Source: Curtobacterium sp. MCBD17_013 (GTDB lineage: Bacteria; Actinomycetota; Actinomycetes; Actinomycetales; Microbacteriaceae). From it: a stretch of 64,000 bases of DNA. A program made the position numbers and the translations under genes. Under the pieces are notes generated by a model that was not told where the DNA came from, ran no database searches, and saw only the letters and a program-made list of their open reading frames with translations. The stretch lies in NCBI RefSeq assembly GCF_003234565.1, contig NZ_QKTU01000013.1, forward strand, positions 1 through 64,000, in the 5' to 3' direction. This document shows, piece after piece, positions 21,161 to 35,552 of this stretch. Positions within the stretch are counted from its first letter, which is position 1. Each line of letters begins with the position of its first letter.

Positions 21161-22837
21161 ATGCCCACGAAGACCTCCGAGCCGCAGCCGCTCGAACCCG
21201 GCACCCTCCGCGTGATCCCCGTCGGGGGACTCGGCGAGATCGGCCGCAACATGACCGTGTACGAGTTCGACGGCAAGCTGCTCGTCGTCGACGCCGGCGT
21301 GCTGTTCCCCGAGGAGCACCAGCCCGGCGTGGACTTGATCCTGCCGGACTTCACCCCGATCCGCGATCGTCTCGACGACGTCCTCGGCGTGGTCCTGACG
21401 CACGGCCACGAGGACCACATCGGCGCCGTGCCGTACCTGCTCAAGCTCCGGCAGGACATCCCGCTCATCGGGTCCACCCTGACGCTCGCGCTCGTCGAGG
21501 CGAAGCTCAAGGAGCACCGGATCAAGCCGTACACGCTGACGGTGCGCGAGGACCAGGTCGAGCAGCTCGGCCCGTTCCACCTCGAGTTCGTGGCCGTGAA
21601 CCACTCCATCCCGGACGCGCTCGCCGTCGCCATCACCACTCCGGCGGGCCGTGTGCTCCACACCGGGGACTTCAAGATGGACCAGCTCCCGCTCGACGAC
21701 CGCATCACGGACCTGCGCGCGTTCGCCCGACTCGGCGAAGCCGGGGTCGATCTGTTCCTGCCGGACTCCACGAACGCGGACGTCCCGGGGTTCACCGCGC
21801 CCGAGCGTGACATCGGGCCGGTGCTCGAGAGCGTCATCGCCCGTGCGCGCCGCCGCGTCGTCGTGGCGAGCTTCTCGAGCCACGTCCACCGCGTGCAGCA
21901 GGTGCTCGACGCCGCCGCGGCGAACAACCGCCGGGTGGCGTTCATGGGCCGGTCGATGGTCCGGAACATGACGATCGCGGCCGAGCTCGGGTACCTCCGG
22001 GTGCCGGACGACGTCCTCATCGACGCCAAGAAGGCCAAGGACCTGCCGGACGACCGCATCGTCTACATGTCGACGGGGTCCCAGGGCGAGCCGATGGCCG
22101 TGCTCGCGCGCATGGCGAACCTCGAGCACCAGATCGAGATCGGCGAGGGGGACACCGTCATCCTCGCGTCGAGCCTCATCCCCGGCAACGAGAACGCCGT
22201 CTACCGGGTGATCGACGGGCTGACGAAGCTCGGCGCCAAGGTCGTCCACAAGGGCAACGCGAAGGTGCACGTGTCGGGCCACGCCTCCGCGGGCGAGCTC
22301 CTGTACTGCTACAACATCCTGCGGCCGCGGAACGTCATGCCCGTGCACGGTGAGCACCGCCACCTGTACGCGAGCGCCGACCTGGCGATCCAGACGGGGG
22401 TCCCGCCGCGCAACGTGATCCTCGGCGAGGACGGCACCGTCGTCGACCTCAAGGACGGCGTGGTCCGCGTGGCCGGGCAACTCGACCTCGGCTACGTCTA
22501 CGTGGACGGGTCGACCGTCGGCGAGATCACGGACGCGGACCTCAAGGACCGGCGTGTGCTGGCGGAAGAGGGCTTCATCTCGATCTTCTGCGCCGTCGAC
22601 TTCACCACCGGCCAGTGCATCGTCGGCCCGGAGATCCAGTCGCGCGGGTTCGCCGAGGACGACTCCGTGTTCGACGAGGTCCGGCCGCAGATCGTCCGGG
22701 CGCTCGCCGACACGGCGGCGAACGGCGCGGGTGACCAGCACGCGTTCACGCAGGCCGTCCGTCGCACGGTGGGGCGCTGGGTGAACACGAAGCACCGGCG
22801 GCGACCGATGATCGTGCCGGTGGTCATCGAGGCGTAG
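21161..22837 (+). CDS. rnj: Ribonuclease J
   Basis: A 558-residue RNase J with endo- and 5'-3' exonuclease activity in mRNA decay and rRNA maturation. The metallo-beta-lactamase motif THGHEDHIGA supplies zinc ligands; further ligands lie in VNHSIPD and HTGDFKMD. The beta-CASP region has GSQGEPMAVLARM and VHVSGHASAGE, followed by MPVHGEHRHLYASADLA. The C-terminal domain is complete. Adjacent dapA-rnj is the usual actinobacterial order. Together with pnp (10.5 kb) it gives the cell a Gram-positive-type RNA decay set. A tandem repeat and a strong terminator follow, and after these the accessory sugar operon begins. Confidence 0.96.
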   Translation: MPTKTSEPQPLEPGTLRVIPVGGLGEIGRNMTVYEFDGKLLVVDAGVLFPEEHQPGVDLILPDFTPIRDRLDDVLGVVLTHGHEDHIGAVPYLLKLRQDIPLIGSTLTLALVEAKLKEHRIKPYTLTVREDQVEQLGPFHLEFVAVNHSIPDALAVAITTPAGRVLHTGDFKMDQLPLDDRITDLRAFARLGEAGVDLFLPDSTNADVPGFTAPERDIGPVLESVIARARRRVVVASFSSHVHRVQQVLDAAAANNRRVAFMGRSMVRNMTIAAELGYLRVPDDVLIDAKKAKDLPDDRIVYMSTGSQGEPMAVLARMANLEHQIEIGEGDTVILASSLIPGNENAVYRVIDGLTKLGAKVVHKGNAKVHVSGHASAGELLYCYNILRPRNVMPVHGEHRHLYASADLAIQTGVPPRNVILGEDGTVVDLKDGVVRVAGQLDLGYVYVDGSTVGEITDADLKDRRVLAEEGFISIFCAVDFTTGQCIVGPEIQSRGFAEDDSVFDEVRPQIVRALADTAANGAGDQHAFTQAVRRTVGRWVNTKHRRRPMIVPVVIEA

Positions 22838-22936: not shown

Positions 22937-22966
22937 TTGACAGACTTCGTTACTTTGGGATAGAAA
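22937..22966 (+). promoter_or_regulatory. Promoter of the glycoside-uptake operon
   Basis: A consensus -35 TTGACA (22937-22942) is followed after 18 bases by TAGAAA (22961-22966); GATAGA at 22959 with 16-base spacing is an alternative. This is the most A/T-rich short stretch of the window and the best sigma-70-type promoter seen. Confidence 0.6.
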
Positions 22967-22968
22967 GT
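22952..22968 (+). promoter_or_regulatory. Candidate repressor operator over the -10
   Basis: ACTTT and AAAGT flank GGGATAG, an inverted repeat centred on the -10. It is a plausible site for the ROK repressor encoded at the end of the operon. Binding is inferred from position only. Confidence 0.35.
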
Positions 22969-23024: not shown

Positions 23025-24347
23025 ATGCACGACACCGACACGCGCGCCGCTGCTGAGGCGATCGGCCGGGGCATCAGCAGGCGCACCCTGTTCCGCTACG
23101 GCGGCGCCGGCGTCGCGAGCGTCGCCCTCGCGGAACTGCTGGCGGCCTGCTCCTCGGGGTCCTCCGCCTCGTCGAGCGGCACGACGACCGTCCGCATGTG
23201 GAGCTGGTACACGGGCCAGCGGGACGTGTTCCCCAAGGTGATCGCCGCGTTCGAGAAGAAGCACCCGAACATCAAGATCCAGAACCGGATCTTCGGGACG
23301 CCGGACCAGTATCTCCCGGCGCTCACCGCGGCCGTCTCGGGTGGTGACGTGCCCGAGATCTTCGCCCCGCACGTCCGCGCCATCACCTACGGCGAACAGG
23401 GGATCTCGGCGGACCTGCGCAAGGAGCTCGGGTCCGGCTTCTTCAAGGACTTCTTCTCGTCGAACAACCAGGAGTACACGAAGAACGGCAAGCAGTACGC
23501 GCTCGGGTTCATGGCGCAGACGTTCGGCCTGTTCTACGACCCGGACATGCTGAGCGCCGCGGGTGTGGACGGGGAGCCGGAGACCTGGGACGACCTCATC
23601 GCCGCCGCCGGGAAGATCGACGCCACGGGCAAGTCCACCGTCGCGTTCAGCGCGAACCCGACGACGAGCGCGCTCGACTTCTTCCTCCCGCTCATCACCC
23701 AGGTGACCGACGACCCGACGTACTACCTCAAGCTCGACCAGCTCGAGAAGGGCTACGCGTACACGAACAAGCCCGTGCTCGAGGCGCTCCAGCTCAACGA
23801 CCGGATCGTCAAGGCGGGCGTGTTCCAGAAGGGCACGACGGGCACGTCGGGCGACCAGGCGACCCAGCTGTTCTACACGGGGGGTGCGGCCATGCTGTTC
23901 GCCGGGTCCTGGATCCCGCAGTCACTCGCGCAGGACGCCCCCAAGGCGTTCCTCGACAAGTACAAGATCATGCGGACCCCGGCGATCAAGAGCGGGGCCC
24001 GACACTGGACCGCCGACCAGGCCGGAGCCGGTTGGGCGGTGTCCGCGACGAGCAAGGCCAAGGACGCCGCGATCGAGTTCCTCAAGTTCATGTACGAGCC
24101 GGCCCAGTACTCGCAGCTCATGAACGACTCGCTGAGCATGCCGTCGACCAAGAGCGCCGCGGACCGCGTGAGCGACCCGCACATCAAGCTCATGACGTCG
24201 TGGCTCCCCGACGGCTGCCCGCACATCCCGTTCGGCGCGGGATCGAGCGCGGCCGGTGACCCCCTCGGCAAGATCTTCGACCAGACCGCCTCGCCGGCCG
24301 AGGTCGCCAAGCAGATGCAGGCCGCCGTCCTCAACGCGAAGGGCTGA
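23025..24347 (+). CDS. Sugar ABC transporter substrate-binding lipoprotein
   Basis: A 440-residue family 1 extracellular solute-binding protein. The N-terminus has twin arginines (19-20, SRRTLF), a hydrophobic stretch and the lipobox LAAC with C42, so it is probably exported folded by Tat and then lipidated. The mature part begins TTVRMWSWYTGQRDVFPKVIAAFEKKHPNIKI and contains WTADQAGAGWAVSATSKAKDAAIEFLKF, as in CUT1-type sugar-binding proteins. AAAGGAG precedes ATG 23025. It starts the operon and would capture the glycoside imported by the two permeases. The ligand cannot be read from sequence; GH1 linkage suggests a beta-glucoside or oligosaccharide. Confidence 0.94.
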   Translation: MHDTDTRAAAEAIGRGISRRTLFRYGGAGVASVALAELLAACSSGSSASSSGTTTVRMWSWYTGQRDVFPKVIAAFEKKHPNIKIQNRIFGTPDQYLPALTAAVSGGDVPEIFAPHVRAITYGEQGISADLRKELGSGFFKDFFSSNNQEYTKNGKQYALGFMAQTFGLFYDPDMLSAAGVDGEPETWDDLIAAAGKIDATGKSTVAFSANPTTSALDFFLPLITQVTDDPTYYLKLDQLEKGYAYTNKPVLEALQLNDRIVKAGVFQKGTTGTSGDQATQLFYTGGAAMLFAGSWIPQSLAQDAPKAFLDKYKIMRTPAIKSGARHWTADQAGAGWAVSATSKAKDAAIEFLKFMYEPAQYSQLMNDSLSMPSTKSAADRVSDPHIKLMTSWLPDGCPHIPFGAGSSAAGDPLGKIFDQTASPAEVAKQMQAAVLNAKG

Positions 24348-24348
24348 C

Positions 24349-25380
24349 ATGGCTGTCACCAATGTGCTCCGGCCGGAGCGGGCGGGACGGTCGGACGAGA
24401 TGGGCCAGCGTGGGCGCGGTCCCCGCGGCACGGGTCGGGGCGGTGGCCCGGGCCGGAACCGCGGGCGGGGACGAGCGGGAGCCTCCGCTCGCCTCCGCCG
24501 CTGGGAGTGGGTCTCCGGGTACACCTTCGTCGCGCCGACCGTCCTGCTGTTCGCGGCGTTCGTCGGCTGGCCGATCCTCTACGCCGCCTACCTGTCGCTG
24601 ACGCGGTGGAGCGGCTTCGGCATCCCGCAGTTCATCGGGCTCGACAACTACACCCGCATGGCGAACGACCCGGTCGCCCGCCACGCGTTCGTCGTGACCG
24701 TGCTCTACGCGGTCGTGACCACGGTCCTCCAGACCGCGATCCCGCTCGTGATCGCGGTGCTCGTCGCGAACGTGTGGAAGGGCCTCAGCGTCGTGGTCCG
24801 GACGATCCTGTTCGTCCCCGGCCTGGTGTCGTTCGTCGTCTCGGGTGCGCTGTGGAAGCTCATCTACGACCCGAACATCGGCACGCTCAACCGGACGCTC
24901 CGCGGGCTCGGGCTCGGCAGTCTCGCCGCGAACTGGCTGTCGACCCCGTCGCTCGTGCTGCCGGCGATCATCGCGGTGTCACTCTGGATGGCGATCGGCA
25001 TGAACATGCTCATCTTCTTCGCCGGCATCCAGGGCATCGACCCCTCGCTCTACGAGGCCGCCGAGGTCGACGGCGCCTCCCGGTTCCAGCAGTTCCGGTT
25101 CGTGACGATCCCGGGCCTCCGGATCGTGACGGCGATCGTGATCAGCCTGAACCTGATGAACGGCTTCAAGGTGTTCGACATCATCTTCGTCATGACCGGC
25201 GGTGGTCCGAGCCACCAGTCCGAGGTGTTCGGCACCTACCTGTACAGCCTCGCGTTCGGGTCCACCGGCGGGTCCGTGCCGCAACTCGGCTACGGCAGTG
25301 CCTTCAGCGTCGTCGTCATGCTCCTGTGCGGCGTCGCCGTGCTCGTCCAGATCGTGCTCGCGAGGAGGGCCGCCCGATGA
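24349..25380 (+). CDS. Sugar ABC transporter permease, MalF/UgpA type
   Basis: A 343-residue inner-membrane permease with six predicted helices and the EAA loop LYEAAEVDGASRFQQFRFVTIP, which docks an ATPase. The first 45 residues are an unusual Gly/Arg-rich cytoplasmic tail (GRGPRGTGRGGGPGRNRGRG). It starts one base after the binding-protein stop and overlaps the next permease by four bases. The system belongs to the CUT1 family. No ATPase gene is present in the operon, so a shared MsiK-type ATPase encoded elsewhere is expected. Confidence 0.94.
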   Translation: MAVTNVLRPERAGRSDEMGQRGRGPRGTGRGGGPGRNRGRGRAGASARLRRWEWVSGYTFVAPTVLLFAAFVGWPILYAAYLSLTRWSGFGIPQFIGLDNYTRMANDPVARHAFVVTVLYAVVTTVLQTAIPLVIAVLVANVWKGLSVVVRTILFVPGLVSFVVSGALWKLIYDPNIGTLNRTLRGLGLGSLAANWLSTPSLVLPAIIAVSLWMAIGMNMLIFFAGIQGIDPSLYEAAEVDGASRFQQFRFVTIPGLRIVTAIVISLNLMNGFKVFDIIFVMTGGGPSHQSEVFGTYLYSLAFGSTGGSVPQLGYGSAFSVVVMLLCGVAVLVQIVLARRAAR

Positions 25381-26264
25381 CCGCCATCAAGCAACCGGTG
25401 TCCCGGACGGACGTCCGCCGCCTCGACCAGGCGCCGCGGCACCGACGGGTCCCGTACGCCCGGTCGGTCGCGGCGATCATCCTCGTGGCGATCTGCGCGG
25501 TGACGGTGTTCCCGCTGCTGTGGCTGCTGGCGACGTCGCTCCGCCCGGAGAACACCGTGTTCAACGGACCGTTCTTCCCGACGATGCTCACGACGCGGGC
25601 ATACGGCACGGCGTGGACGTCGACGGACTTCGGGCTGCACTTCCTCAACAGCCTCTGGATCACCACGGCGACGGTCGCGGGCGTGCTCGTGTTCGCGTCG
25701 ATGACCGGGTACGCCTTCGCCAAGCTCCGGTTCCCGTTCAAGAACGTCCTCTACGTCGCACTCCTGTCGACCCTGATGATGCCGTCGACGGCGCTCATCA
25801 TCCCGCTCTACCTGCAACTCAAGAACATCGGGCTGCTCAACAGCCAGTTCGGCCTGCTCGTGCTCTACATCAGCAGTTCGGCACCGTTCGCCATGTTCCT
25901 CATGCGCGCCTTCTTCGAGACCCTGCCCGACGAACTCGTCCAGGCCGCGCGGATCGACGGTGCCGGCGAGTTCACGGTGTTCTGGCGGGTGATCCTGCCG
26001 TTGGCCCGACCCGGGGTCGCGACGGTCGTCATCTTCCAGTTCCTGTCGACGTGGAACGAGTTCCTCATCGCGAACACGGTGCTGCAGAACACGCGGGCAC
26101 TCCCGCTCCAGCCGGTCCTGTTCAGCCTCATCGGGCAGTACCAGACCGACTGGCCGTCGCTCGCGGCCGGCCTGACGCTGTCGATCGTGCCGGTCGTGCT
26201 CGTGTACGTCTGGATGCAGCGACAGTTCGTCGCGGGCATGACCCTCGGGGCGGTGAAGAGCTGA
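25377..26264 (+). CDS. Sugar ABC transporter permease, MalG/UgpE type
   Basis: A 295-residue permease with six hydrophobic helices. The EAA loop is LVQAARIDGAGEFTVFWRVILPLARP. Other family signs are FPLLWLLATSLRP after the first helix and FLSTWNEFLIAN. ATG 25377 overlaps the previous stop (ATGA). It forms the heterodimeric channel with the upstream permease. Its TGA overlaps the ATG of the following aldo/keto reductase, which ties transport to catabolism in one transcript. Confidence 0.95.
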   Translation: MTAIKQPVSRTDVRRLDQAPRHRRVPYARSVAAIILVAICAVTVFPLLWLLATSLRPENTVFNGPFFPTMLTTRAYGTAWTSTDFGLHFLNSLWITTATVAGVLVFASMTGYAFAKLRFPFKNVLYVALLSTLMMPSTALIIPLYLQLKNIGLLNSQFGLLVLYISSSAPFAMFLMRAFFETLPDELVQAARIDGAGEFTVFWRVILPLARPGVATVVIFQFLSTWNEFLIANTVLQNTRALPLQPVLFSLIGQYQTDWPSLAAGLTLSIVPVVLVYVWMQRQFVAGMTLGAVKS

Positions 26265-27253
26265 TGGTCGACCTCGGTACCACGATCGATCCCGACCTCG
26301 ATGTGACCCCGGGCGGCTGGATGCGGCCCCTCGGGAGGACCGGGCTCACCGTCTCCGCGGTCACCCTCGGCGCCGCACCCCTCGGCAGCATGCCGGAGAA
26401 CTTCGGCCATGCCGTCGAGGAGGACGACGCGGTCGCCCTCGTCGACCAGGTCCTCCACAGCCCGATCCGGACGATCGACACCGCGAACGGGTACTCGGGC
26501 GGCGCGAGCGAACGGCGCATCGGCCTCGGCATCGCGCGCGCCGGCGGCCTGCCGGACGACGTGCTCGTCGTCACGAAGGTGGACGCCCGGGACGGCGACT
26601 ACTCGGGCGCCCGCGTCCGCGCGTCCGTCCGCGAGAGCCAGGAGCGGCTCGGCATCGACCGGCTGCCGCTCGTGCACCTCCACGACCCCGAGTTCCACGA
26701 CCTCGACGCGATGACGGCACCGGGTGGCGCGGTCGACACGCTCGTCGCCCTCCGGGACGAGGGCGTCGTCGAGCACATCGGCCTCGCGGGCGGGGACGTC
26801 CACGTCATGCGGCGGTACCTCGACCTCGGGGTGTTCGAGGTCCTCCTCGTGCACAACCGCCTGACGCTCGTCGACCGCAGCGCCGAGTCGCTCGTGGCCC
26901 GGGCGGCCGAGACCGACGTCGCGGTCGTCAACGCGGCGGTGTTCGGCGGGGGGATCCTCGCCGCACCGCGGAGTGGCCGGACCGACTACGGCTACCGCCC
27001 CGCGCCTCCGGCCACTCGCGCCGCCATCACCGCGATGGCCGACGTCTGCGACCGGTACGGGACCGACCTCGCGACGGCGGCGCTCGCCGCGTCCGTGCGG
27101 GAGCCGGCGGTCGCGAGCACGATCGTCGGGTTCAGTCGACCCGAGCGGATCGCGACGACCGTCGACGCCGCGACCACGGACCTCCCGGACGACCTGTGGG
27201 TGGAACTCGCCGCCCTCCGGCCGGCTCCGGAGCACTGGCTCGACGCCCGCTGA
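26264..27253 (+). CDS. Aldo/keto reductase, aldose 1-dehydrogenase-like
   Basis: A 329-residue aldo/keto reductase of the group that contains L-fucose/D-threo-aldose 1-dehydrogenases and pyridoxal dehydrogenase. The tetrad is Asp and Tyr in RTIDTANGYSGGASERRIG, Lys in VVTKVDARDGDYSG and His in VHLHDPEFHD. The start overlaps the permease stop. Within this operon it may oxidise the released sugar or reduce a keto-sugar; the direction cannot be told from sequence. Cofactor residues near the C-terminus (IVGFSRPERI) resemble NAD(P)-binding ends of this group. Confidence 0.87.
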   Translation: MVDLGTTIDPDLDVTPGGWMRPLGRTGLTVSAVTLGAAPLGSMPENFGHAVEEDDAVALVDQVLHSPIRTIDTANGYSGGASERRIGLGIARAGGLPDDVLVVTKVDARDGDYSGARVRASVRESQERLGIDRLPLVHLHDPEFHDLDAMTAPGGAVDTLVALRDEGVVEHIGLAGGDVHVMRRYLDLGVFEVLLVHNRLTLVDRSAESLVARAAETDVAVVNAAVFGGGILAAPRSGRTDYGYRPAPPATRAAITAMADVCDRYGTDLATAALAASVREPAVASTIVGFSRPERIATTVDAATTDLPDDLWVELAALRPAPEHWLDAR

Positions 27254-27273
27254 GGCGCCGAGCACCACGACAT

Positions 27274-27295
27274 GGGCCCGCACCGACGCGGGCCC
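27274..27295 (+). other. Intra-operon hairpin before the tautomerase gene
   Basis: Perfect arms GGGCCCGC/GCGGGCCC enclose ACCGAC in the only sizeable gap (57 bases) of the operon, between the transport-AKR part and the catabolic part. It could stabilise or attenuate the transcript. Confidence 0.55.
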
Positions 27296-27310
27296 GGGAA
27301 GCAGGAGACC

Positions 27311-27673
27311 ATGCCCCTCGTCCGCGTCGACATGCACGCGGCCCTCGCACCACGTCGCGAGGCCATCAGCGCCGCCATCCACAAGGGACTCGTCGACGGG
27401 CTCGCGATGCCCGAGGACGACCTGTTCCAGGTCTTCCGGCTCCACGAGCCCGGGGAGCTCGTGTACTCACGGACGTTCCCGAACGCGGACCGCAACGACA
27501 TCCTCTTCGTGCAGATCCTGCTCGCCCGCATCTACGGTCCCGAGGACAAGCAGCGCATGTACGGGTGCGTGGTCGACGAGCTGGTGGGTGCCGGGGTGAA
27601 GCGCGACGAGGTCCTCATCGCCGTGACCGAGAACGAGGGCAGCGACTGGTGCGCCCCGGACAAGGAGGCCTGA
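27311..27673 (+). CDS. Tautomerase family protein
   Basis: A 120-residue protein of the 4-oxalocrotonate tautomerase superfamily, long form. After removal of Met, Pro1 (MPLVRVD) is the catalytic base of this superfamily. The body DLFQVFRLHEPGELVYSRTF, the middle LFVQILLARIYGPEDKQ and the end ENEGSDWCAP match tautomerases usually found in sugar or oxidoreductase operons of actinobacteria. Start ATG 27311 is fixed by Pro1 and by AGGAGA upstream. Two bases separate it from the GH1 gene. Its substrate is unknown; a keto-enol step on an oxidised sugar is a speculative option. Confidence 0.87.
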   Translation: MPLVRVDMHAALAPRREAISAAIHKGLVDGLAMPEDDLFQVFRLHEPGELVYSRTFPNADRNDILFVQILLARIYGPEDKQRMYGCVVDELVGAGVKRDEVLIAVTENEGSDWCAPDKEA

Positions 27674-27674
27674 C

Positions 27675-29105
27675 GTGGCGTTCACCAGGAGCGATCTGCC
27701 CGACGACTTCGTCATCGGCACCGCCACGGCCGCGTACCAGGTCGAGGGGTCGGTCGACGTCGACGGCCGCGGACCGAGCATCTGGGACGACTTCGCCCGC
27801 GTCCCCGGCGCGATCACCGACGGCTCGACGGGCGACCCGGCCGACGACCACCTCCGCCGGTACCGCGAGGACGTCGCGATCATGGCGGACCTCGGCGTCG
27901 ACGCGTACCGGTTCTCGGTCGCGTGGCCGCGCGTCCAGGCGGACGGCACCGGGCCGGCGAACCAGGCGGGGCTCGACCACTACCGCCGCCTCGCGGAGTC
28001 ACTGCTCGAGCGGGGCATCACCCCGTGGGCGACGCTGTACCACTGGGACCTCCCGAGCGCGCTCGAGGCGCGGGGCGGCTGGCTCGAGCGGGACACGGCG
28101 GACCGGTTCGCGGAGTACGCGGGCCTCGTCGTCGCGGGCCTCGGTGACCTCGTCGACCACTGGATCACCCTGAACGAGCCGTGGTGCTCGGCGTTCCTCG
28201 GTTACGCGTCGGGTGTGCACGCGCCGGGCAAGCAGCTCGGGACCCGTGCCGCGCACGCGGCCCACCACCTGATGCTCGGGCACGGGCGTGCCGTCCCGGC
28301 CATCCGTGCTGCCGCCCGGCCGACCGCGCAGGTCGGGGTCACGCTCAACCTCTACTCGGTGCGGTCGGCGACCGACTCGGCCGACGACCGCGACGCCGCC
28401 CGACGCATCGACGGCCTCCAGAACCGGCTGTTCCTCGAGCCGCTGCTCCTCGGCCACTACCCGGAGGACGTCGTCCGTGACCTCGGGGAGCAGGACTGGT
28501 TCGCGGCGAACCCCGAGTCCGACGCCGCCGAGATCGCGGCGGACGTCGACTTCGTGGGCGTCAACTACTACAGCCGGCACACCGTGCGGGCCGGTGGCGG
28601 GACCGGCGCGGCGACCAACGCCGGTGGCGCCGTCGGCGCGGTGAGCGCGAACCCGGGCAGCGAGTTCGTCGAGACCGTCGACACCGGTGCACCGCGCACG
28701 CAGATGGGGTGGGAGATCCACCCGGACGGCCTCGTCGACGTCCTGCGCATGGTCCACACGCTCCGGCCCGAGCTGCCGATCGCGGTCACCGAGAACGGCG
28801 CGGCCTACGAGGACGTGGTCGACGAGACGGGTGCCATCGAGGACGAGGAGCGCCGTGCGTACGTCGAGGCGCACCTCGCGGCGTGCGCCGACGCGGTCCG
28901 CGAGGGGATCCCGCTCCGCGGGTACTTCTGCTGGAGCCTCCTCGACAACTGGGAGTGGGCGTTCGGGTACACGCGCCGCTTCGGCATCGTGCACGTCGAC
29001 TACGCGACCCAGCAGCGGACCGTCAAGCGGAGCGGCCGCTGGCTGGCCGGCGTGCTCGGCGGCCCCCTCGCGACCACCACCGAGCAGTCAGGAGCCCAGG
29101 CATGA
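27675..29105 (+). CDS. Glycoside hydrolase family 1 beta-glucosidase
   Basis: A 476-residue GH1 enzyme, full length, without signal peptide, so it acts in the cytoplasm on imported glycosides. The retaining catalytic pair is visible: acid/base E168 in WITLNEPW and nucleophile E373 in AVTENGAAYED. The N-terminal signature FVIGTATAAYQVEGSVDVDGRGPSIWDDF and the C-terminal GYFCWSLLDNWEWAFGYTRRFG are typical. GTG 27675 follows the tautomerase stop immediately; the next gene overlaps by four bases. It should release glucose or a related sugar from beta-glucosides such as cellobiose or plant aryl-glucosides. Confidence 0.95.
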   Translation: MAFTRSDLPDDFVIGTATAAYQVEGSVDVDGRGPSIWDDFARVPGAITDGSTGDPADDHLRRYREDVAIMADLGVDAYRFSVAWPRVQADGTGPANQAGLDHYRRLAESLLERGITPWATLYHWDLPSALEARGGWLERDTADRFAEYAGLVVAGLGDLVDHWITLNEPWCSAFLGYASGVHAPGKQLGTRAAHAAHHLMLGHGRAVPAIRAAARPTAQVGVTLNLYSVRSATDSADDRDAARRIDGLQNRLFLEPLLLGHYPEDVVRDLGEQDWFAANPESDAAEIAADVDFVGVNYYSRHTVRAGGGTGAATNAGGAVGAVSANPGSEFVETVDTGAPRTQMGWEIHPDGLVDVLRMVHTLRPELPIAVTENGAAYEDVVDETGAIEDEERRAYVEAHLAACADAVREGIPLRGYFCWSLLDNWEWAFGYTRRFGIVHVDYATQQRTVKRSGRWLAGVLGGPLATTTEQSGAQA

Positions 29106-30280
29106 CCACCACCGACACGGACCGCACCGACCCGGCCGCCGCTGAGCCACCGCTGCGCACCCCGGCGGTCGCGACCAAGCGCCTCCCGACCGTCGCACCG
29201 ACCCGGTACGCGCTCGTCGGCAACGGGTGGCGCACCGAGGTCTACCTCCGGGTGGCGCAGCTGTTGCCCGACCGGTTCCGGGTGACCGGCGTGGTGACGC
29301 GTCGAGCCGAGGCCGGGGCGGAACTCGAGCGCCGGTGGGGCGTCCCGACCTGGCGGACGCTCGACGACCTCCTGGCCGCGGAGCGTCCCGAGTTCGTCGT
29401 GCCGAGCGTCCCGTGGCCGGTGACGCCCGGGCTCGTCCGCGAGCTCGTCGGACGCGGGGTCCCCGTGCTCACCGAGACGCCGCCGGCGCCGGACCTCGAC
29501 GGCATGCGGTCGCTCTGGGCCGACGTCGGCGCGGCGGACCTCGTCCAGGTCGCCGAGCAGTACCTGCTCATGCCGCTCCACGCCGCTCGGCTGGCAGCGG
29601 TGCGGGACGGGGTAGTCGGTGCCCCGACCTCCGTGCACGTCAGCTCGACGCACCTGTACCACGCGGTGTCGATGATCCGCGGGTTCCTCGACGTCGCCCC
29701 GGGGCCGGTGACCGTGCGGTCCGTGACCTCGACCGCGCCCCTGGTCGACCCGATCACGCCGGACGGCTGGACACACGACACGGAGCCGAAGCCGGCCCGG
29801 ACGATCCTGTCGACGCTCGACCTCGGGGACGGCCGCACGGGGCTCTACGACTTCACGGACAACCAGTGGTGGAACCCGGTGCGTCCGGACCACCTGGCGG
29901 TCCGCGGGTCGACGGGCGAGCTCCACGACGAGACCCTCGTGCGCATGCTCGACGCCACGACCCCGGTGACGTCGCGGTTCGAGCGGGCGCAGACCGGCCA
30001 CGGCATGGACTACGAGGGGCTCGACACGACGCACATCAGCCTCGACGGGCGCCCAGTGTGGCGGAACCTGTACGAGGGCGGACGCCTCATGGACGACGAC
30101 CTCGCCGTCGCCGAGCTGCTGACGCGCACCGGCGCATGGACCCGCGACGAGGCCCCGGGCCCCTACCCGCTCGCCGAGGGCCTGCACGACCACCACGTCG
30201 GGCTCGCCATCGAGGAGGCCGCTGGCACCGGCACGGCGGTGACGATCTCGAACGAGCCCTGGGTGACGTCGCGTGCGTGA
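29102..30280 (+). CDS. Gfo/Idh/MocA family protein with altered EKP motif
   Basis: A 392-residue protein with a Rossmann domain (YALVGNGWRTEVYLRVAQLLPD, about residues 37-58) and a C-terminal Gfo/Idh/MocA alpha/beta domain (VSSTHLYHAVSMIRGFLDV). Members oxidise or reduce sugars with NAD(P); glucoside 3-dehydrogenases belong here. The conserved EKP, whose lysine is catalytic in the family, reads E125-T126-P127 (VLTETPPAP), and the glycine-rich loop is GNGWR instead of GxGxxG. So it may be a divergent enzyme or a non-catalytic protein. ATG 29102 overlaps GH1; the stop overlaps the following DUF1080 gene. Confidence 0.84.
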   Translation: MTTTDTDRTDPAAAEPPLRTPAVATKRLPTVAPTRYALVGNGWRTEVYLRVAQLLPDRFRVTGVVTRRAEAGAELERRWGVPTWRTLDDLLAAERPEFVVPSVPWPVTPGLVRELVGRGVPVLTETPPAPDLDGMRSLWADVGAADLVQVAEQYLLMPLHAARLAAVRDGVVGAPTSVHVSSTHLYHAVSMIRGFLDVAPGPVTVRSVTSTAPLVDPITPDGWTHDTEPKPARTILSTLDLGDGRTGLYDFTDNQWWNPVRPDHLAVRGSTGELHDETLVRMLDATTPVTSRFERAQTGHGMDYEGLDTTHISLDGRPVWRNLYEGGRLMDDDLAVAELLTRTGAWTRDEAPGPYPLAEGLHDHHVGLAIEEAAGTGTAVTISNEPWVTSRA

Positions 30281-31130
30281 CGTCGCCGGCCCTCCCGGCC
30301 GATCCGCGCCGTCGTTCGTCGCGACCGCGCTCTTCGACGGCGTCACGCTCGACGGCTGGCACGCCGTCCCGCGCACGCCCGTGGCCGCACGGCCGGGAGG
30401 CCCGGCACCGGACCCCGCGTCACCCGCGGTCCGCGACGCCCTCGCCACGAGTGGTGCGTGGTCCGTGGTCGACGGCGCCGTCGTGGGTGGCCAGGAGCGC
30501 CGCGGACTCGGCGGCTACCTGGTCAGCGACGAGGTGTTCGGTGACGTCGACCTGACGGTGCTGGTGCGACCGGACTGGCCCGCGGACACCGGGATCATGC
30601 TCCGAGCCTCGGCGCTCGGGTCGCAGGGGTACCAGGTGCTCGTCGACCACCGGCCGTCCGGCTCCATCGGCGGGTTCTACGGCAACGGGATCGGCGGGTT
30701 CCACGCCGTCGGGTTCGCCGTCGACGCCGTCCGCGACGCCGGCGGGCGAGCGGTCGGTCTGACCGAGGACGACCCGGTGACGAGCCGCGAGCCGGTGACG
30801 CCGGAGAAGCGGGCCCTGCTGACGTACGCCGCCAGCGCCGAGGCGTTCCTCGCCGCGTGGCGATGGGACGACTGGAACGAGCTCCGGATCCGGTGCGTGG
30901 GGGAGTGGCCGGTGCTGACGACCTGGGTCAACGGGCTCCTCGTCGCCGAGTGCGACACCGGGGCGCTCCCACCGGACCGGTTCGACCGCGCCGCCGTCCG
31001 CGCCCTGCTCGGTCGCGCCGGGCACATCGCGCTCGAGGTGCACGACAACGACCCCGCGCTCGGGGACGAGCGGTGGGGGCCGGGCGCGGTCGTGCGGTGG
31101 CGGGACCTGCGGGTCGTGCGGCTCGACTGA
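30273..31130 (+). CDS. DUF1080 (3-keto-disaccharide hydrolase) family protein
   Basis: A 285-residue protein of the concanavalin-like DUF1080 family. It begins with the diagnostic ALFDGVTLDGWH, then GAWSVVDGAVVGG, followed by DVDLTVLVRPDWPADTGIMLRAS, QGYQVLVDHRPSGSIGGFYG, WDDWNELRIRCVGEWPVLTTWVNG and HIALEVHDN. Proteins of this family cleave 3-keto-disaccharides or 3-keto-glycosides produced by a sugar 3-dehydrogenase. Many homologues are secreted, but no signal peptide is visible here, which suits action on an imported substrate. GTG 30273 lies inside the end of the Gfo/Idh/MocA gene (8-base overlap), so the two are tightly coupled. The activity is inferred from family membership. Confidence 0.86.
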   Translation: MRDVAGPPGRSAPSFVATALFDGVTLDGWHAVPRTPVAARPGGPAPDPASPAVRDALATSGAWSVVDGAVVGGQERRGLGGYLVSDEVFGDVDLTVLVRPDWPADTGIMLRASALGSQGYQVLVDHRPSGSIGGFYGNGIGGFHAVGFAVDAVRDAGGRAVGLTEDDPVTSREPVTPEKRALLTYAASAEAFLAAWRWDDWNELRIRCVGEWPVLTTWVNGLLVAECDTGALPPDRFDRAAVRALLGRAGHIALEVHDNDPALGDERWGPGAVVRWRDLRVVRLD

Positions 31131-31136
31131 CCGACG

Positions 31137-31198
31137 CCGCCGGGTCCGCCGGAGTCGCGGGGTCCGCCGGGGCCGCCGGGTCCGCCAGGGCCGCCGCG
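31137..31198. repeat. 9-bp GC-rich repeat between convergent genes
   Basis: Imperfect nine-base units of the form CCGCCGGGT run about seven times between the DUF1080 stop and the ROK gene stop. It may serve as a bidirectional terminator region, although no clear hairpin is present. Confidence 0.6.
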
Positions 31199-32467
31199 TC
31201 AGCCGCGACCGGCGCGGGTCCGCGTCAGCCGGGCGTGGAGCACGGCGGCGGCAGCGCCGAGCGCGGCGGCGTCCCGGCCGACGGCGCTCATCGCCACGTG
31301 CACGGGATGCGTGCCCCGCATCACCGCGTGCGCGTGGAGCTCCCGCTGCACCGCCCGCAGGTAGCGCTCGCCGGCGGTGGCGAACCCCGGGCCCGCGAGG
31401 TAGACCTCGTCGAGGTCGAGCAGGTTGACGAGGTTCAGGATCGCCCGCGCCAGGTACTCGGCGGACTCCTCGACGAGGGCGAGCGCGCCGGTGTCGCCCT
31501 GGACGGCCGCGGCCGCGACGCGTGCGAAGGTCGCGCGGACGTCGGCCGTCACCGCCCGGGCGTCGTCGCCGTCCGTGGTGGTGTCGATGCCGAGCCGCGC
31601 GACGAGGGCCGCGTCGGTGCGGGCTCGTGCGACGACGGCGGCGGGCGCGGCGAGGACCTCGAGGCAGCCGCGGGACCCACACCAGCAGGGCGGCCCGTCC
31701 CACCGCAGGGACATGTGCCCGATCTCCCCGGCGTTCGACGACGCGCCCCGGTGGACGTCGCCTCCGACGAGCAGCCCGCACCCGATGCCCGTCGCCATGT
31801 AGACGGTGGCGAAGTCGCGCGTGGACGGCACGCGGCCCGACCAGAACTCGCCGAGGGCGGCGCAGTTCGCGTCGTTGTCGACCGTGACCGGCAGGTCGGT
31901 CGCCGCGGTGAGCGCGTGCCCGAGCGCGAAGTCGTCCCACTCGCTCCACGAGTCGGTGGACCGGAGCACCCGACCGGGCAGGTCGAGCCGTCCCTCGCCG
32001 GCGACGCCGATCCCGATCACGGTGTCGCGGTCGATCCCGTGGTCGGCGAGCATGACGGCGACGTCCCGGGCGACGCGGGCCACGACGGCCTCGGGTGACT
32101 CGGTCCCGGTCCCCGCGACGCTCCGTGCGTCGATCGGGCGACCGCTGAGGTCGACGAGGACGTACACGTCCTGCGCGGTGTCCAGGGCGACCCCGACCGC
32201 GTAGCCGGCGGTGCTGTTCAGCTCGAGCAGGACGGCGCGTTTGCCGCCGGTCGACTCCGCGTACCCGACCTCGGACACGAGGCCGTCGTCGAGCAGGGTC
32301 CGGACGATCTTCGAGATCGTCGCGTTCGTCAGTCCGGACCGCTCCGCGAGCTCCGTGCGGCTGATGGTGCCACTCGAGCGGATGAGGTCCACGATCGCGC
32401 TCCGGGTCTCGGCGACCGAGGCGCCCTTGAGGCGACGGATCGGTGCGTCGGGGCGGACCGTGACCAT
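31199..32467 (-). CDS. ROK family transcriptional regulator
   Basis: A 422-residue regulator. A winged HTH is at the N-terminus ([41 protein letters not shown], about residues 24-64), followed by a ROK sugar-kinase-like domain with [16 protein letters not shown] and the zinc motif [21 protein letters not shown]. The phosphate-loop ATP site of true kinases is poorly matched, so it is a repressor, not a glucokinase. GAGGAGGA precedes ATG 32467. It is convergent with the glycoside operon, which it most likely controls through the inverted repeat at 22952-22968. It is divergent from ftsK. Confidence 0.9.
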
Positions 32468-32576: not shown

Positions 32577-35552
32577 ATGGCCGGGAGCACCAAGTCGTCG
32601 TCGCGCGCGTCCTCGGGGTCCCGCGCGTCCTCGGGGTCGCGGGCGTCCTCGCCCGCGCGCGGGTCCGGCGGCACGGGGGCCCGCGGCAGCACCTCCCGGA
32701 CCCAGGCGACCACCCGGAAGCTCCCGCAACCGGTCGAGGTCGTCGGGCCGAACCCCCTCGTGACCGCCTGGACGGGTGCAGCGCACGGTGTCGGCGCGGT
32801 GTTCCGGCTGCTCGGCAAGGAGTCGCTCGAGCACGACGAACGACGCGACGGCTTCCCGTTCCTGCTGTTCCTGCTCGCGATCGCCGGTGCCGTGGTCGAG
32901 TGGCTCAACCCCGCCAACCCGGTCGCGGTGGCCCTGGACGCCTACACGTTCGGTGGTCTGTTCGGTCGGCTCGCGGTCGCGTTGCCGGTCATCATGATCG
33001 TGTTCGCCGGGTGGTTGTTCCGGCATCCCGCGTCCGTGCACGACAACACCCGCATCGGCATCGGCCTGGGGTTGCTCGTCATCGGCATCTCCTCCGTCTG
33101 TCACATCTACGGCGGTCAGCCCCCGGCGTCCGACGGCATGCCCGTGCTCGCACAGGCGGGCGGGATCATCGGCTGGGTGGTGATCGGCTGGATCGTCGCG
33201 GCCGCGACCGCGTGGATCGCCACCCCCGTGGCCGTGGCGCTCATCGCGCTCTCGCTGTTCATCATCACGAAGACGCCCCCGAACCACGTGGGTCGACGCG
33301 TGCACGAGCTCTACGCGTACCTGTTCGGCACGCCGGGGCCGGCTCCGATCGACGCGGACGCACCCGCGCCCGTGGCACCGCGCCGTGGCCGGAACACCTC
33401 GGCGTCGTCGTCGTTCGACCCGTTCGAGGACCTCGACGGCGACGGCAGCGGCGACGGCTCGGGCGAGGGCGAGCCCGGGACGCTCCCGTGGTGGCGGCGC
33501 AACAAGACCGGGCGCGAGGAGGATCCCGCCTACGACACCCCCGTGCTCCCGCACGCCGAGACGTCCGGCGCCGCGGCCGCCACCGGCCGCGGCGCCGCGG
33601 CTGCGCCGGTCGCCCCGGGTCCGGTCGGGGTCGCGGGAGCGGTGGGCTCGGGCGCCGCGGCGGGCCTCGTCGACCTGACGCCGGCCGAACCCGTGTCGGT
33701 CAACCTCAACGACTCGCTCGAACAGGACGTCGCCGAGGACCTCGACCGCGCCGAGGAGGCCCTCCGTGCGTTCGACGCGCAGGCGCCGGGCCGCGTGCGC
33801 CACGACGAGGCCCAGGCCGCGACCGAGGTCATCCGTCCCGCCGTGGCCGAGCCCGTCACGGACGTGCTGCCCCTCGACGAAGACGAGCAGGACGGCCTGC
33901 CCGACACGACCGCCGACGACGCTCCGGCCGCGCCCTACCGCCTGCCCGCCGCCTCGACGCTGAGCCCGGGCACCCCCGCGACGGCGCACAGCACCGCGAA
34001 CGACGAGATGGTGGCGGCGATCACCGGCGTCCTCACCGAGTTCAAGGTCGACGCCAAGGTCACCGGGTTCTCGCGCGGCCCGACGGTCACCCGGTACGAG
34101 ATCGAGCTCGGCCCGGGGGTCAAGGTCGAGCGCGTCACGGCGTTGAGCAAGAACCTGTCGTACGCGGTCGCCTCGAACGAGGTCCGCATCCTCTCGCCGA
34201 TCCCCGGCAAGAGCGCGATCGGCGTCGAGATCCCGAACTCGGACCGCGAGATCGTCTCGCTCGGCGACGTGCTGCGGTCGAACGCGGCCACGAAGTCGAA
34301 GCACCCGATGACCATCGGCGTCGGCAAGGACGTCGAGGGCGGCTTCGTCGTGGCGAACCTCGCGAAGATGCCGCACCTCCTGGTCGCCGGCTCCACGGGG
34401 TCCGGCAAGTCGAGCTTCGTCAACTCGATGATCACGTCGCTCCTCATGCGCGCGAAGCCGAGCGAGGTCCGCATGGTCCTCGTCGACCCGAAGCGCGTCG
34501 AGCTCTCGATCTACGCCGGTGTCCCGCACCTCATCACCCCCATCATCACGAATCCGAAGAAGGCGGCCGAGGCGCTGCAGTGGGTCGTGAAGGAGATGGA
34601 CATGCGGTACGACGACCTCGCGTCGTTCGGGTTCCGGCACGTCGACGACTTCAACCGTGCCGTGGCGAACGACGAGATCGTCCTGCCCGCCGGCAGCGAG
34701 CGGAAGCTCAAGCCCTACCCGTACCTCCTCGTCGTGGTGGACGAGCTCGCGGACCTCATGCTCGTCGCCCCGCGCGACGTCGAGGACTCGATCGTCCGCA
34801 TCACGCAGCTCGCCCGGGCGGCCGGCATCCACCTCGTCCTCGCGACGCAGCGTCCCTCGGTGGACGTCGTCACGGGGCTCATCAAGGCGAACGTGCCGTC
34901 GCGGCTCGCGTTCGCGGTGACGAGCGTGACGGACTCCCGGGTCATCCTCGACCAGCCGGGAGCCGACAAGCTCATCGGCCAGGGCGACGGACTGTTCCTG
35001 CCGATGGGGTCGTCGAAGGCCGTCCGCGTGCAGGGCGCCTGGGTGCAGGAGAGCGAGATCGCCGAGGTCGTCGCGCACGTCACCCGCCAGGCCCGCCCGG
35101 AGTACCGCCAGGACGTCCAGGCGGTCGTCGAGCGCAAGGAGATCGACGCCGACATCGGTGACGACCTCGAGCTCCTCCTCGCGGCCGTGGAGCAGGTCGT
35201 CTCGACGCAGTTCGGGTCGACCTCGATGCTCCAGCGGAAGCTCCGCGTGGGCTTCGCCAAGGCGGGGCGGCTCATGGACCTCATGGAGTCACGCGAGATC
35301 GTCGGGCCGAGCGAGGGCTCGAAGGCCCGCGACGTCCTCATCACGGTCGAGCAGCTTCCCGAGACCCTCGCGCGACTCCGGGGTGAGGAGCCCCCCGCGC
35401 CGGCCGCCCCGGTCACCCCGACGCGCGACGGCGCGGAGGGCGACGTCGGGTACCGCGGGTCCGACGACCCGGTCGCCGACATGACCCGTGGGTACGATGA
35501 GGTCGAGAGCGATCCGGACGAGGACGCCTGGAGCCTGACCGGCAGGGAGTGA
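32577..35552 (+). CDS. ftsK: DNA translocase FtsK
   Basis: A 991-residue FtsK/SpoIIIE translocase that pumps chromosomal DNA at the division septum. A low-complexity Ser/Arg/Ala N-terminus (1-45) precedes four membrane helices (about 80-235), an acidic Ala/Pro linker, and the motor. Walker A is GSTGSGKS at 605-612 and Walker B is [14 protein letters not shown]. The C-terminal gamma winged-helix ([31 protein letters not shown]), which reads polar DNA sequences, is present. ATG 32577 is supported by a leaderless -10. pgsA starts six bases later. The order ftsK-pgsA-cinA-clgR-recA is standard in actinobacteria; here rnj and ftsK are separated by the sugar operon. Confidence 0.96.
32604..32651 (+). 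repeat. 18-bp in-frame repeat in ftsK
   Basis: The codons for Arg-Ala-Ser-Ser-Gly-Ser occur twice, and a third copy ends after Arg-Ala-Ser-Ser, in the predicted disordered N-terminus of FtsK. Such a repeat can vary in number without breaking the frame. Confidence 0.8.

Follow-up and report, generated by a model that had tools for sequence, protein, structure and literature searches.

The window analysed here is a stretch of 64,000 nucleotides from the contig NZ_QKTU01000013.1 of Curtobacterium sp. MCBD17_013 (assembly GCF_003234565.1), and the subject of this text is the locus at positions 23025-32467, discussed as a candidate operon for the utilisation of glycosides. It gathers a tight run of eight genes on the + strand (23025-31130) and a convergent gene for a ROK-family regulator. 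The initial annotation had described one compact operon encoding a binding protein, two permeases, an aldo/keto reductase (AKR), a tautomerase, a GH1 β-glucosidase, a Gfo/Idh/MocA-like protein (below, Gfo) and a DUF1080 protein; all nine named genes were found, with the families and orientations as claimed. The features are as follows.

22945..22967, + strand: 23-base conserved element, likely operator/promoter region, CTTCGTTACnnTnnGATAnAAAG, shared with a locus of another genus (L010)
23025..24347, + strand: sugar ABC transporter substrate-binding lipoprotein with a Tat-like RR motif (PF01547, 132 bits)
24349..25380, + strand: ABC sugar permease 1 (PF00528, 46 bits)
25377..26264, + strand: ABC sugar permease 2 (PF00528, 84 bits)
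26264..27253, + strand: AKR (PF00248, 126 bits)
27311..27673, + strand: tautomerase-superfamily protein, malonate semialdehyde decarboxylase-like (PF14552, 43.5 bits; 3mjz, E 5e-14)
27675..29105, + strand: GH1 β-glucosidase (TIGR03356, an equivalog, 569 bits vs cut-off 478.5)
29102..30280, + strand: Gfo/Idh/MocA-fold protein of a clade without the usual lysine, below Lys-less (PF01408, 38.8 bits vs cut-off 24)
30273..31130, + strand: protein of the DUF1080 / 3-keto-disaccharide hydrolase family, signal-less subfamily (PF06439, 72.5 bits vs curated cut-off 26.8)
31199..32467, - strand: ROK-family regulator, convergent (PF00480, 151.5 bits, with an N-terminal winged helix, PF13412)

The operon and its genomic site

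The successive spacings along the eight-gene run are 1, -4, -1, 57, 1, -4 and -8 bases, the sole wide gap being that of 57 bases 5′ of the tautomerase gene, while all other genes overlap or lie 1 base apart; the ROK gene is separated from the end of the DUF1080 gene by 68 bases. In the binding protein, the RR motif is at position 19 and the lipobox, LAAC, at position 39, and no ATPase gene for the importer is present in the eight-gene run. Concerning the enzymes, the AKR contains D72, Y77, K105 and H140, as read from motifs, which we take to be the D-Y-K-H tetrad of its superfamily, and its best-scoring solved relatives are L-galactose dehydrogenases (8scc, 115 bits). The tautomerase carries a proline directly after the start methionine (MPL), consistent with its alignment to 3mjz, and its best-scoring solved relatives are malonate semialdehyde decarboxylases. 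The GH1 protein has TLNEP at 165 (E168) and TENG at 372 (E373), the glutamates of which are presumably the catalytic residues, and the regulator combines the winged helix with the ROK domain.

A simple hydropathy check, which is not a dedicated signal-peptide predictor, revealed no evident signal peptide in the GH1, Gfo, DUF1080, AKR and tautomerase proteins. For the DUF1080 protein, the highest 15-residue Kyte-Doolittle mean over the first 60 residues is 1.29 vs 1.89 for the binding protein, in agreement with the initial annotation, which had regarded it as signal-less. The GH1 and DUF1080 reactions would thus apparently take place in the cytoplasm, after import.

The locus is flanked by rnj (21161-22837) and ftsK (32577-35552), both named by eye and from the initial annotation, which had also stated that the block interrupts the rnj-ftsK synteny. 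This view is borne out by the rnj loci of 28 other congeners, since ftsK follows rnj directly (within 1.5 kb) in 24 of them, the remaining four comprising three with an unrelated three-gene set and one that ends at a contig end. The insert 3′ of rnj in these three loci (L186, L187 and L189) looks by eye like a membrane-fusion protein, an ABC ATPase and a permease, i.e. it is exporter-like. As the rnj-ftsK gap may hold either the operon or an exporter-like set, it takes inserts, and the operon is accessory. The operon is present at the same site in L009, a locus of the genome G333 labelled as the same species. It should be noted that the binding-protein gene there (L009, 5477-6797) lies in two overlapping frames, in a frameshift-like manner, which may reflect a sequencing error or a broken gene.

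Conservation of the gene set and its upstream element

The comparison across the family, which had been suggested as a check of the operon, brought up the same gene order in a second genus. In L010, the genes for ROK, AKR, GH1, Gfo and DUF1080 are consecutive and on one strand, their products being 52, 67, 72, 67 and 61% identical to those of the operon, so that the order AKR-GH1-Gfo-DUF1080 is common to both loci at 61-72% identity. The Gfo and DUF1080 genes overlap in both, by 8 bases in the operon and by 4 bases in L010. A third locus, from Amnibacterium setariae (L011, identical with L056), groups AKR, DUF1080, Gfo and ROK at 57, 60, 68 and 47% identity with the strands mixed, and has an importer (23-37%) and a tautomerase (50%) beside them. 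Relatives of the ROK regulator of 47-52% identity thus adjoin the same genes in both L010 and L011.

The 23-base element ends 57 bases 5′ of the first gene of the operon and is overlapped by an inverted repeat, ACTTT-7-AAAGT, at 22952-22968. In L010, the same element is found between the ROK and AKR genes. Between the intergenic regions of the operon and L010, 18 of the 23 positions are identical, a value reached by none of 300 dinucleotide-shuffled pairs (best 17), and within the genome of 3.39 Mb the element has a single match at up to 2 mismatches. The pattern was built from the operon and L010 sites, which have zero mismatches by construction, the evidence being the shuffle test and the uniqueness. 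Related patterns that were tried gave no match in L011. A formal promoter scan upstream of the operon yielded no promoter; by eye, TTGACA-18-TAGAAA at 22937-22966 reads as promoter-like. Because the same order occurs in a second genus and the shared element only once in the genome, the gene set looks like a conserved unit, and the ROK regulator is a candidate for binding the element.

The partners of this Gfo protein were counted in 99 Gfo loci, the operon not being included and L011/L056 as well as L037/L059 being counted twice. The AKR occurs in 14/99, in 13 of these on the same strand within two genes, and the tautomerase in 10/99, in 6 of these within two genes. The earlier view that the pairing of an AKR with a tautomerase is unusual has therefore to be abandoned, as both are repeated neighbours of this Gfo clade, whether or not GH1 or DUF1080 is present. 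The GH1 gene is present in 4/99 loci, each time adjoining Gfo, although once on the other strand, and the DUF1080 gene in 3/99 (two distinct loci), always adjoining Gfo. From these neighbourhoods, AKR, Gfo and tautomerase may be a sugar-oxidation module that acquired GH1 and DUF1080 as additions.

A GH10-like protein recurs in the clusters of the Lys-less Gfo and tautomerase (L037 17656-18915, L039 6685-7950, L040 10074-11372, L011 6292-7566, and L043), the match having been tested in L037 and the other calls coming from clustering. Among the loci L061-L134, those of Micromonospora and Cellulomonas have the Lys-less Gfo in conserved neighbourhoods without other genes of the operon, and the role of the clade may thus be more general.

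The Lys-less Gfo protein and the DUF1080 subfamily

The Gfo protein belongs to the Gfo/Idh/MocA group by its Rossmann match and its two-domain fold; the AlphaFold model, based on 40 sequences, has a predicted local distance difference test score (pLDDT) of 89, and the listed fold matches reach Z scores of 26.5-29.9. In canonical members, the lysine of the EKP motif acts together with an aspartate and a histidine, according to the passages drawn on from PMC5969746. Here, the site reads E125-T126-P127 (ETP), with T126 aligned by HMMER to the EKP of 1zh8, 8qc2 and 8qc3; the assignment to the canonical dehydrogenases, including glucoside 3-dehydrogenases, thus fails at the catalytic lysine. A threonine occupies this position in all 80 named loci; ETP is also seen in 24/24 rows of another locus set (operon Gfo included) and in the 3/3 plasmid homologues read from other phyla (Paenibacillus, Treponema and Lachnospira eligens). 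The clade extends through Actinomycetota and, at 27-32% identity, to these three; within the family, a relative was found at E 1e-20 in 47/299 genomes.

Invariant residues in the 80 named loci are E125, P127, E152, H184, H187, D250 and Q255, as well as G40, G42, R44 and R67, which give the form GxGxR. Since the latter four are invariant, the protein may still bind NAD(P). Taken together, the conserved residues suggest a working enzyme whose catalytic residues have changed and not a degenerate one. The paralogues in the same genome are of the EKP type in at least six genes among those readable: of 11 PF01408 places, 8 loci were read, five having EKP at the site (one only to EK), with one further EKP in two overlapping loci; the other read loci were not settled by the pattern, and two places besides that of the operon went unread.

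The alignment A3 joins the operon Gfo and 39 of 74 clean full-length relatives. The Gfo tree has 39 rows, chosen by hand and labelled by our own context tags; L042, L052 and the majority of the 80 named loci are not among them. All three of its Gfo proteins linked to DUF1080 are in a single clade of 7 rows (100/100).

The DUF1080 protein, which passes the curated cut-off of PF06439 (3-keto-disaccharide hydrolase), is 99% identical in G333 and was not found in any of the 28 other congeners (23/23 and 5/5 in two genome sets). The own genome has one PF06439 match, and 25/199 family genomes exceed the cut-off, mostly with far longer frames. The nine-row alignment of the subfamily contains long invariant stretches, including PDWPADTG, and none of the nine proteins has an obvious signal sequence by eye. 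Relatives at 47.5-54.5% identity are present in 7 plasmid records; the plasmid loci examined cover 4/7 records with DUF1080 and 3/5 with Gfo. Three tumour-inducing (Ti) plasmids (L180-L182) have, in this order, genes for LacI, a binding protein, two permeases, an ATPase, DUF1080, Gfo, a PD40 propeller and a GlcG-like protein, the DUF1080 (49-53% identity) being directly between the importer genes and a Gfo gene of the EKP type. This plasmid operon possibly serves to degrade a glycosylated compound of tumour or plant origin.

Other DUF1080 relatives lie near an EKP Gfo gene on a Novosphingobium plasmid, with TIM-barrel, SDR and GH2-like genes by eye, and near both an EKP Gfo gene and a TIM-barrel gene in L012, of the same family as the operon. 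The neighbours of the relative in L013 are genes for an importer, an enolase-superfamily member and PD40 proteins; no Gfo gene was found there. The Gfo proteins neighbouring DUF1080 are thus of the EKP type in L012, L179 and L180-L182 and of the ETP type in the operon, L010 and L011. In the tree of nine DUF1080 rows, the operon, L010 and L013 are split from L011 together with the EKP-linked members (100/99), and, given this mixture, the partnership between DUF1080 and Gfo would either have changed hands or the DUF1080 gene have been acquired more than once.

A gene for a PD40 β-propeller accompanies the DUF1080 subfamily in 6/8 loci tested or annotated (L010 18357-19691; L011 17590-18471; L013 8996-9817 and 10810-11841; L180-L182), the operon itself not having been searched for PD40; one also occurs together with a Lys-less Gfo in L037 (11624-12559). 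The PD40 protein could be an enzyme of the route.

Proposed route, rival explanations and known systems

The preferred interpretation, for which the arguments seem about evenly balanced, is that of a ROK-regulated cytoplasmic operon for glycoside utilisation, which combines hydrolysis by GH1 with 3-keto cleavage by the DUF1080 protein, the redox being provided by the Lys-less Gfo and/or the AKR. Import of a glycoside or an oligosaccharide would be the task of the lipoprotein and the two permeases, which probably rely on a shared ATPase with its gene elsewhere; once in the cytoplasm, β-glucosides would be hydrolysed by GH1 and 3-keto-glycosides cleaved by the DUF1080 protein, the latter as suggested by its family. 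The redox steps—oxidation at C3 and/or reduction of the released keto-sugar—would fall to the Lys-less Gfo with NAD(P), to the AKR, or to both. Alternatively, C1 of the released sugar may be the site that the AKR oxidises; a possible substrate of the tautomerase is an enolisable intermediate, either a keto-sugar or a sugar acid. We infer the transport substrate, each of the reactions and the order of the steps from sequence; plant β-glucosides are a guess at the substrate, based on GH1 and the Ti-plasmid relatives.

The initial annotation had placed a 3-keto route beside the GH1 route, and this idea is retained in part: the conserved unit, the lack of evident signal peptides in GH1 and DUF1080, the family match of DUF1080 and the importer/EKP Gfo context on the Ti plasmids argue for it, but not its second element, Gfo acting as a glucoside 3-dehydrogenase, which cannot be assumed with ETP in place of EKP. 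A more specific and rather tentative extension is that the Lys-less (ETP) clade represents an unrecognised class of sugar-metabolism enzyme acting on C3- or C1-oxidised sugars from the partner AKR and replacing the usual EKP Gfo of DUF1080, giving redox glycoside cleavage of a new design beside GH1 in one operon.

Several points weigh against the interpretation as a whole. The Gfo protein is without the lysine used by the dehydrogenases of this fold and by the GH188 glycosidase, and no TIM-barrel hydratase/eliminase was detected by Pfam among the nine genes, unlike in L012. DUF1080 relatives are scarce, occurring at E 0.001 in 8/299 family genomes (the own one, the same species, four at 51-62% and two weak) and in 3/396 phylum genomes (the own one and two weak), and the DUF1080 proteins with an ETP-type partner do not form one clade. 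The AlphaFold model of the DUF1080 protein, based on two sequences, has a pLDDT of 41 and is too poor to place active-site residues; for the family, crystal structures exist, and a figure of PMC9765024 gives putative positions of the active site. Concerning the neighbourhoods, DUF1080 is found in 1/80 named loci of the ETP-type Gfo, and its association with this clade was observed solely in the operon's species, L010 and L011, with the DUF1080 gene of L011/L056 on the strand opposite to its Gfo neighbour. The tautomerase lies farther from Gfo in 4/10 rows, and the ETP-type Gfo genes of Micromonospora and Cellulomonas mostly go without the operon's partner genes. Finally, it is the spacing that suggests a single transcript of the eight genes.

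A serious rival, to which we attach clearly less confidence although it is possible, confines the redox to the released sugar. The AKR would be an aldose 1-dehydrogenase, and AKR, Lys-less Gfo and tautomerase would process the released sugar by an oxidative non-phosphorylative route, fed by GH1 and DUF1080 and with Gfo having no role at C3. It is favoured by the L-galactose dehydrogenases being the best-scoring solved relatives of the AKR, and by two Kineococcus loci (L095 and L125) which carry a binding protein (40-44%), permeases, AKR, Gfo and tautomerase and have no match to GH1 or DUF1080. By eye, a Zn-alcohol dehydrogenase comes next in both, truncated in L095 where the contig stops, and L125 also has an SDR and an IlvD/Edd-like dehydratase. 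Similarly, L039, L040 and L043 hold Gfo, tautomerase, an importer, an aldehyde-dehydrogenase-like gene (by eye) and an IlvD/Edd gene (Pfam-tested in L039 only). The operon itself, however, encodes no sugar-acid dehydratase or aldolase recognisable by Pfam among its nine genes; the sole IlvD/Edd match of the genome is on another contig, and its three MR/MLE matches are also elsewhere. Moreover, this rival leaves the constant place of DUF1080 next to the Gfo gene unexplained.

It appears unlikely that the Lys-less Gfo, partnered by DUF1080, is itself a glycosidase or an enzyme processing 3-keto-glycosides, in the manner of GH188 or GH109. The best fold matches are indeed GH188 sulfoquinovosidases (8qc8, Z 29.9; Foldseek ranks 1-6), Y154 aligns with Tyr136 of the sulfoquinovosidase ArSqgA, and H187 is within the motif where that enzyme has His193, by our own reading with no superposition. 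Other oxidoreductases of the fold, however, are within about 1 Z unit of the GH188 match (5uhw, 28.9), so GH188 is not distinguished from them by the match, which was rejected as proof of glycosidase activity. In ArSqgA, as the part of PMC10755693 drawn on describes it, two residues, Lys107 and His193, are in contact with the hydroxyl at C3 and a third, Tyr136, with that at C2. The residue set Lys107, Tyr136, His193 and His321 is not reproduced in full here, Lys107 corresponding to Thr126 (the offset of 13 between chain and paper numbering in this alignment was counted by hand), and Y154 is replaced by Ser in 19/80 relatives. That these are accessory genes travelling together with no joint pathway, in effect a GH1 β-glucoside operon, accords with DUF1080 not being found in the 28 other congeners and with Gfo genes often lacking these partners in Micromonospora and Cellulomonas, but is quite improbable in view of the gene order and element kept in L010 and the overlapping Gfo and DUF1080 genes of both loci.

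Returning to the preferred interpretation, a combined GH1 and 3-keto route, its component families are known, and what is new, as far as titles and abstract starts show, is their combination and the Lys-less Gfo where an EKP Gfo is expected. Judged by titles and the opening lines of abstracts, neither the Lys-less clade nor this operon was recognised as the subject of any paper in the open-licence literature on DUF1080, 3-keto-glycosides and the Gfo lysine. Few gene sets for redox glycoside cleavage have been elucidated; the operon would add a small, apparently cytoplasmic actinobacterial one, in which a single regulatory element precedes both a hydrolytic route and a probable redox one. The missing lysine leaves the annotation of a conserved Gfo clade as ordinary dehydrogenases unproven; that Ti plasmids carry members of the operon's DUF1080 subfamily suggests that compounds of plant or tumour origin are involved.

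With regard to known systems, a similar one is that of Caulobacter, where, in the passages concerned of PMC9007349, the DUF1080 protein CCNA_01705 is encoded near the lactose 3-dehydrogenase and is important for lactose use. The operon shares with LacABC and CCNA_01705 a DUF1080 family protein within a glycoside-use cluster. There, however, according to the same part of that source, oxidation, by a membrane-bound dehydrogenase, takes place in the periplasm, as does the step proposed for DUF1080, whereas in the operon no evident signal peptide was found downstream of that of the binding protein, and the redox candidates are the Lys-less Gfo and the AKR. The Agrobacterium operon for oxidation, elimination, hydration and reduction (GlycDH, AtOGE, AtHYD and a Gfo reductase; PMC10628242, in the portion drawn on) is similar in its step-wise redox cleavage of glucosides and in having a Gfo member; the present one differs in that no flavin dehydrogenase or TIM-barrel eliminase/hydratase is among its nine genes, DUF1080 and GH1 being there instead, and in its Gfo without the lysine. 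The Ti-plasmid cluster likewise places a DUF1080 member of this subfamily, signal-less as well, in an operon with importer genes and next to a Gfo gene, but its EKP-type Gfo gives no BLASTP match to the operon Gfo at E 0.01, the unit is without GH1, AKR and tautomerase, and its regulator is LacI rather than ROK. The likeness to the GH188 enzyme, as far as the cited part of PMC10755693 goes, lies in the fold and in the tyrosine aligned with Y154, the differences being the catalytic lysine replaced by threonine and a HMMER alignment covering only the N-terminal half and a short C-terminal tail.

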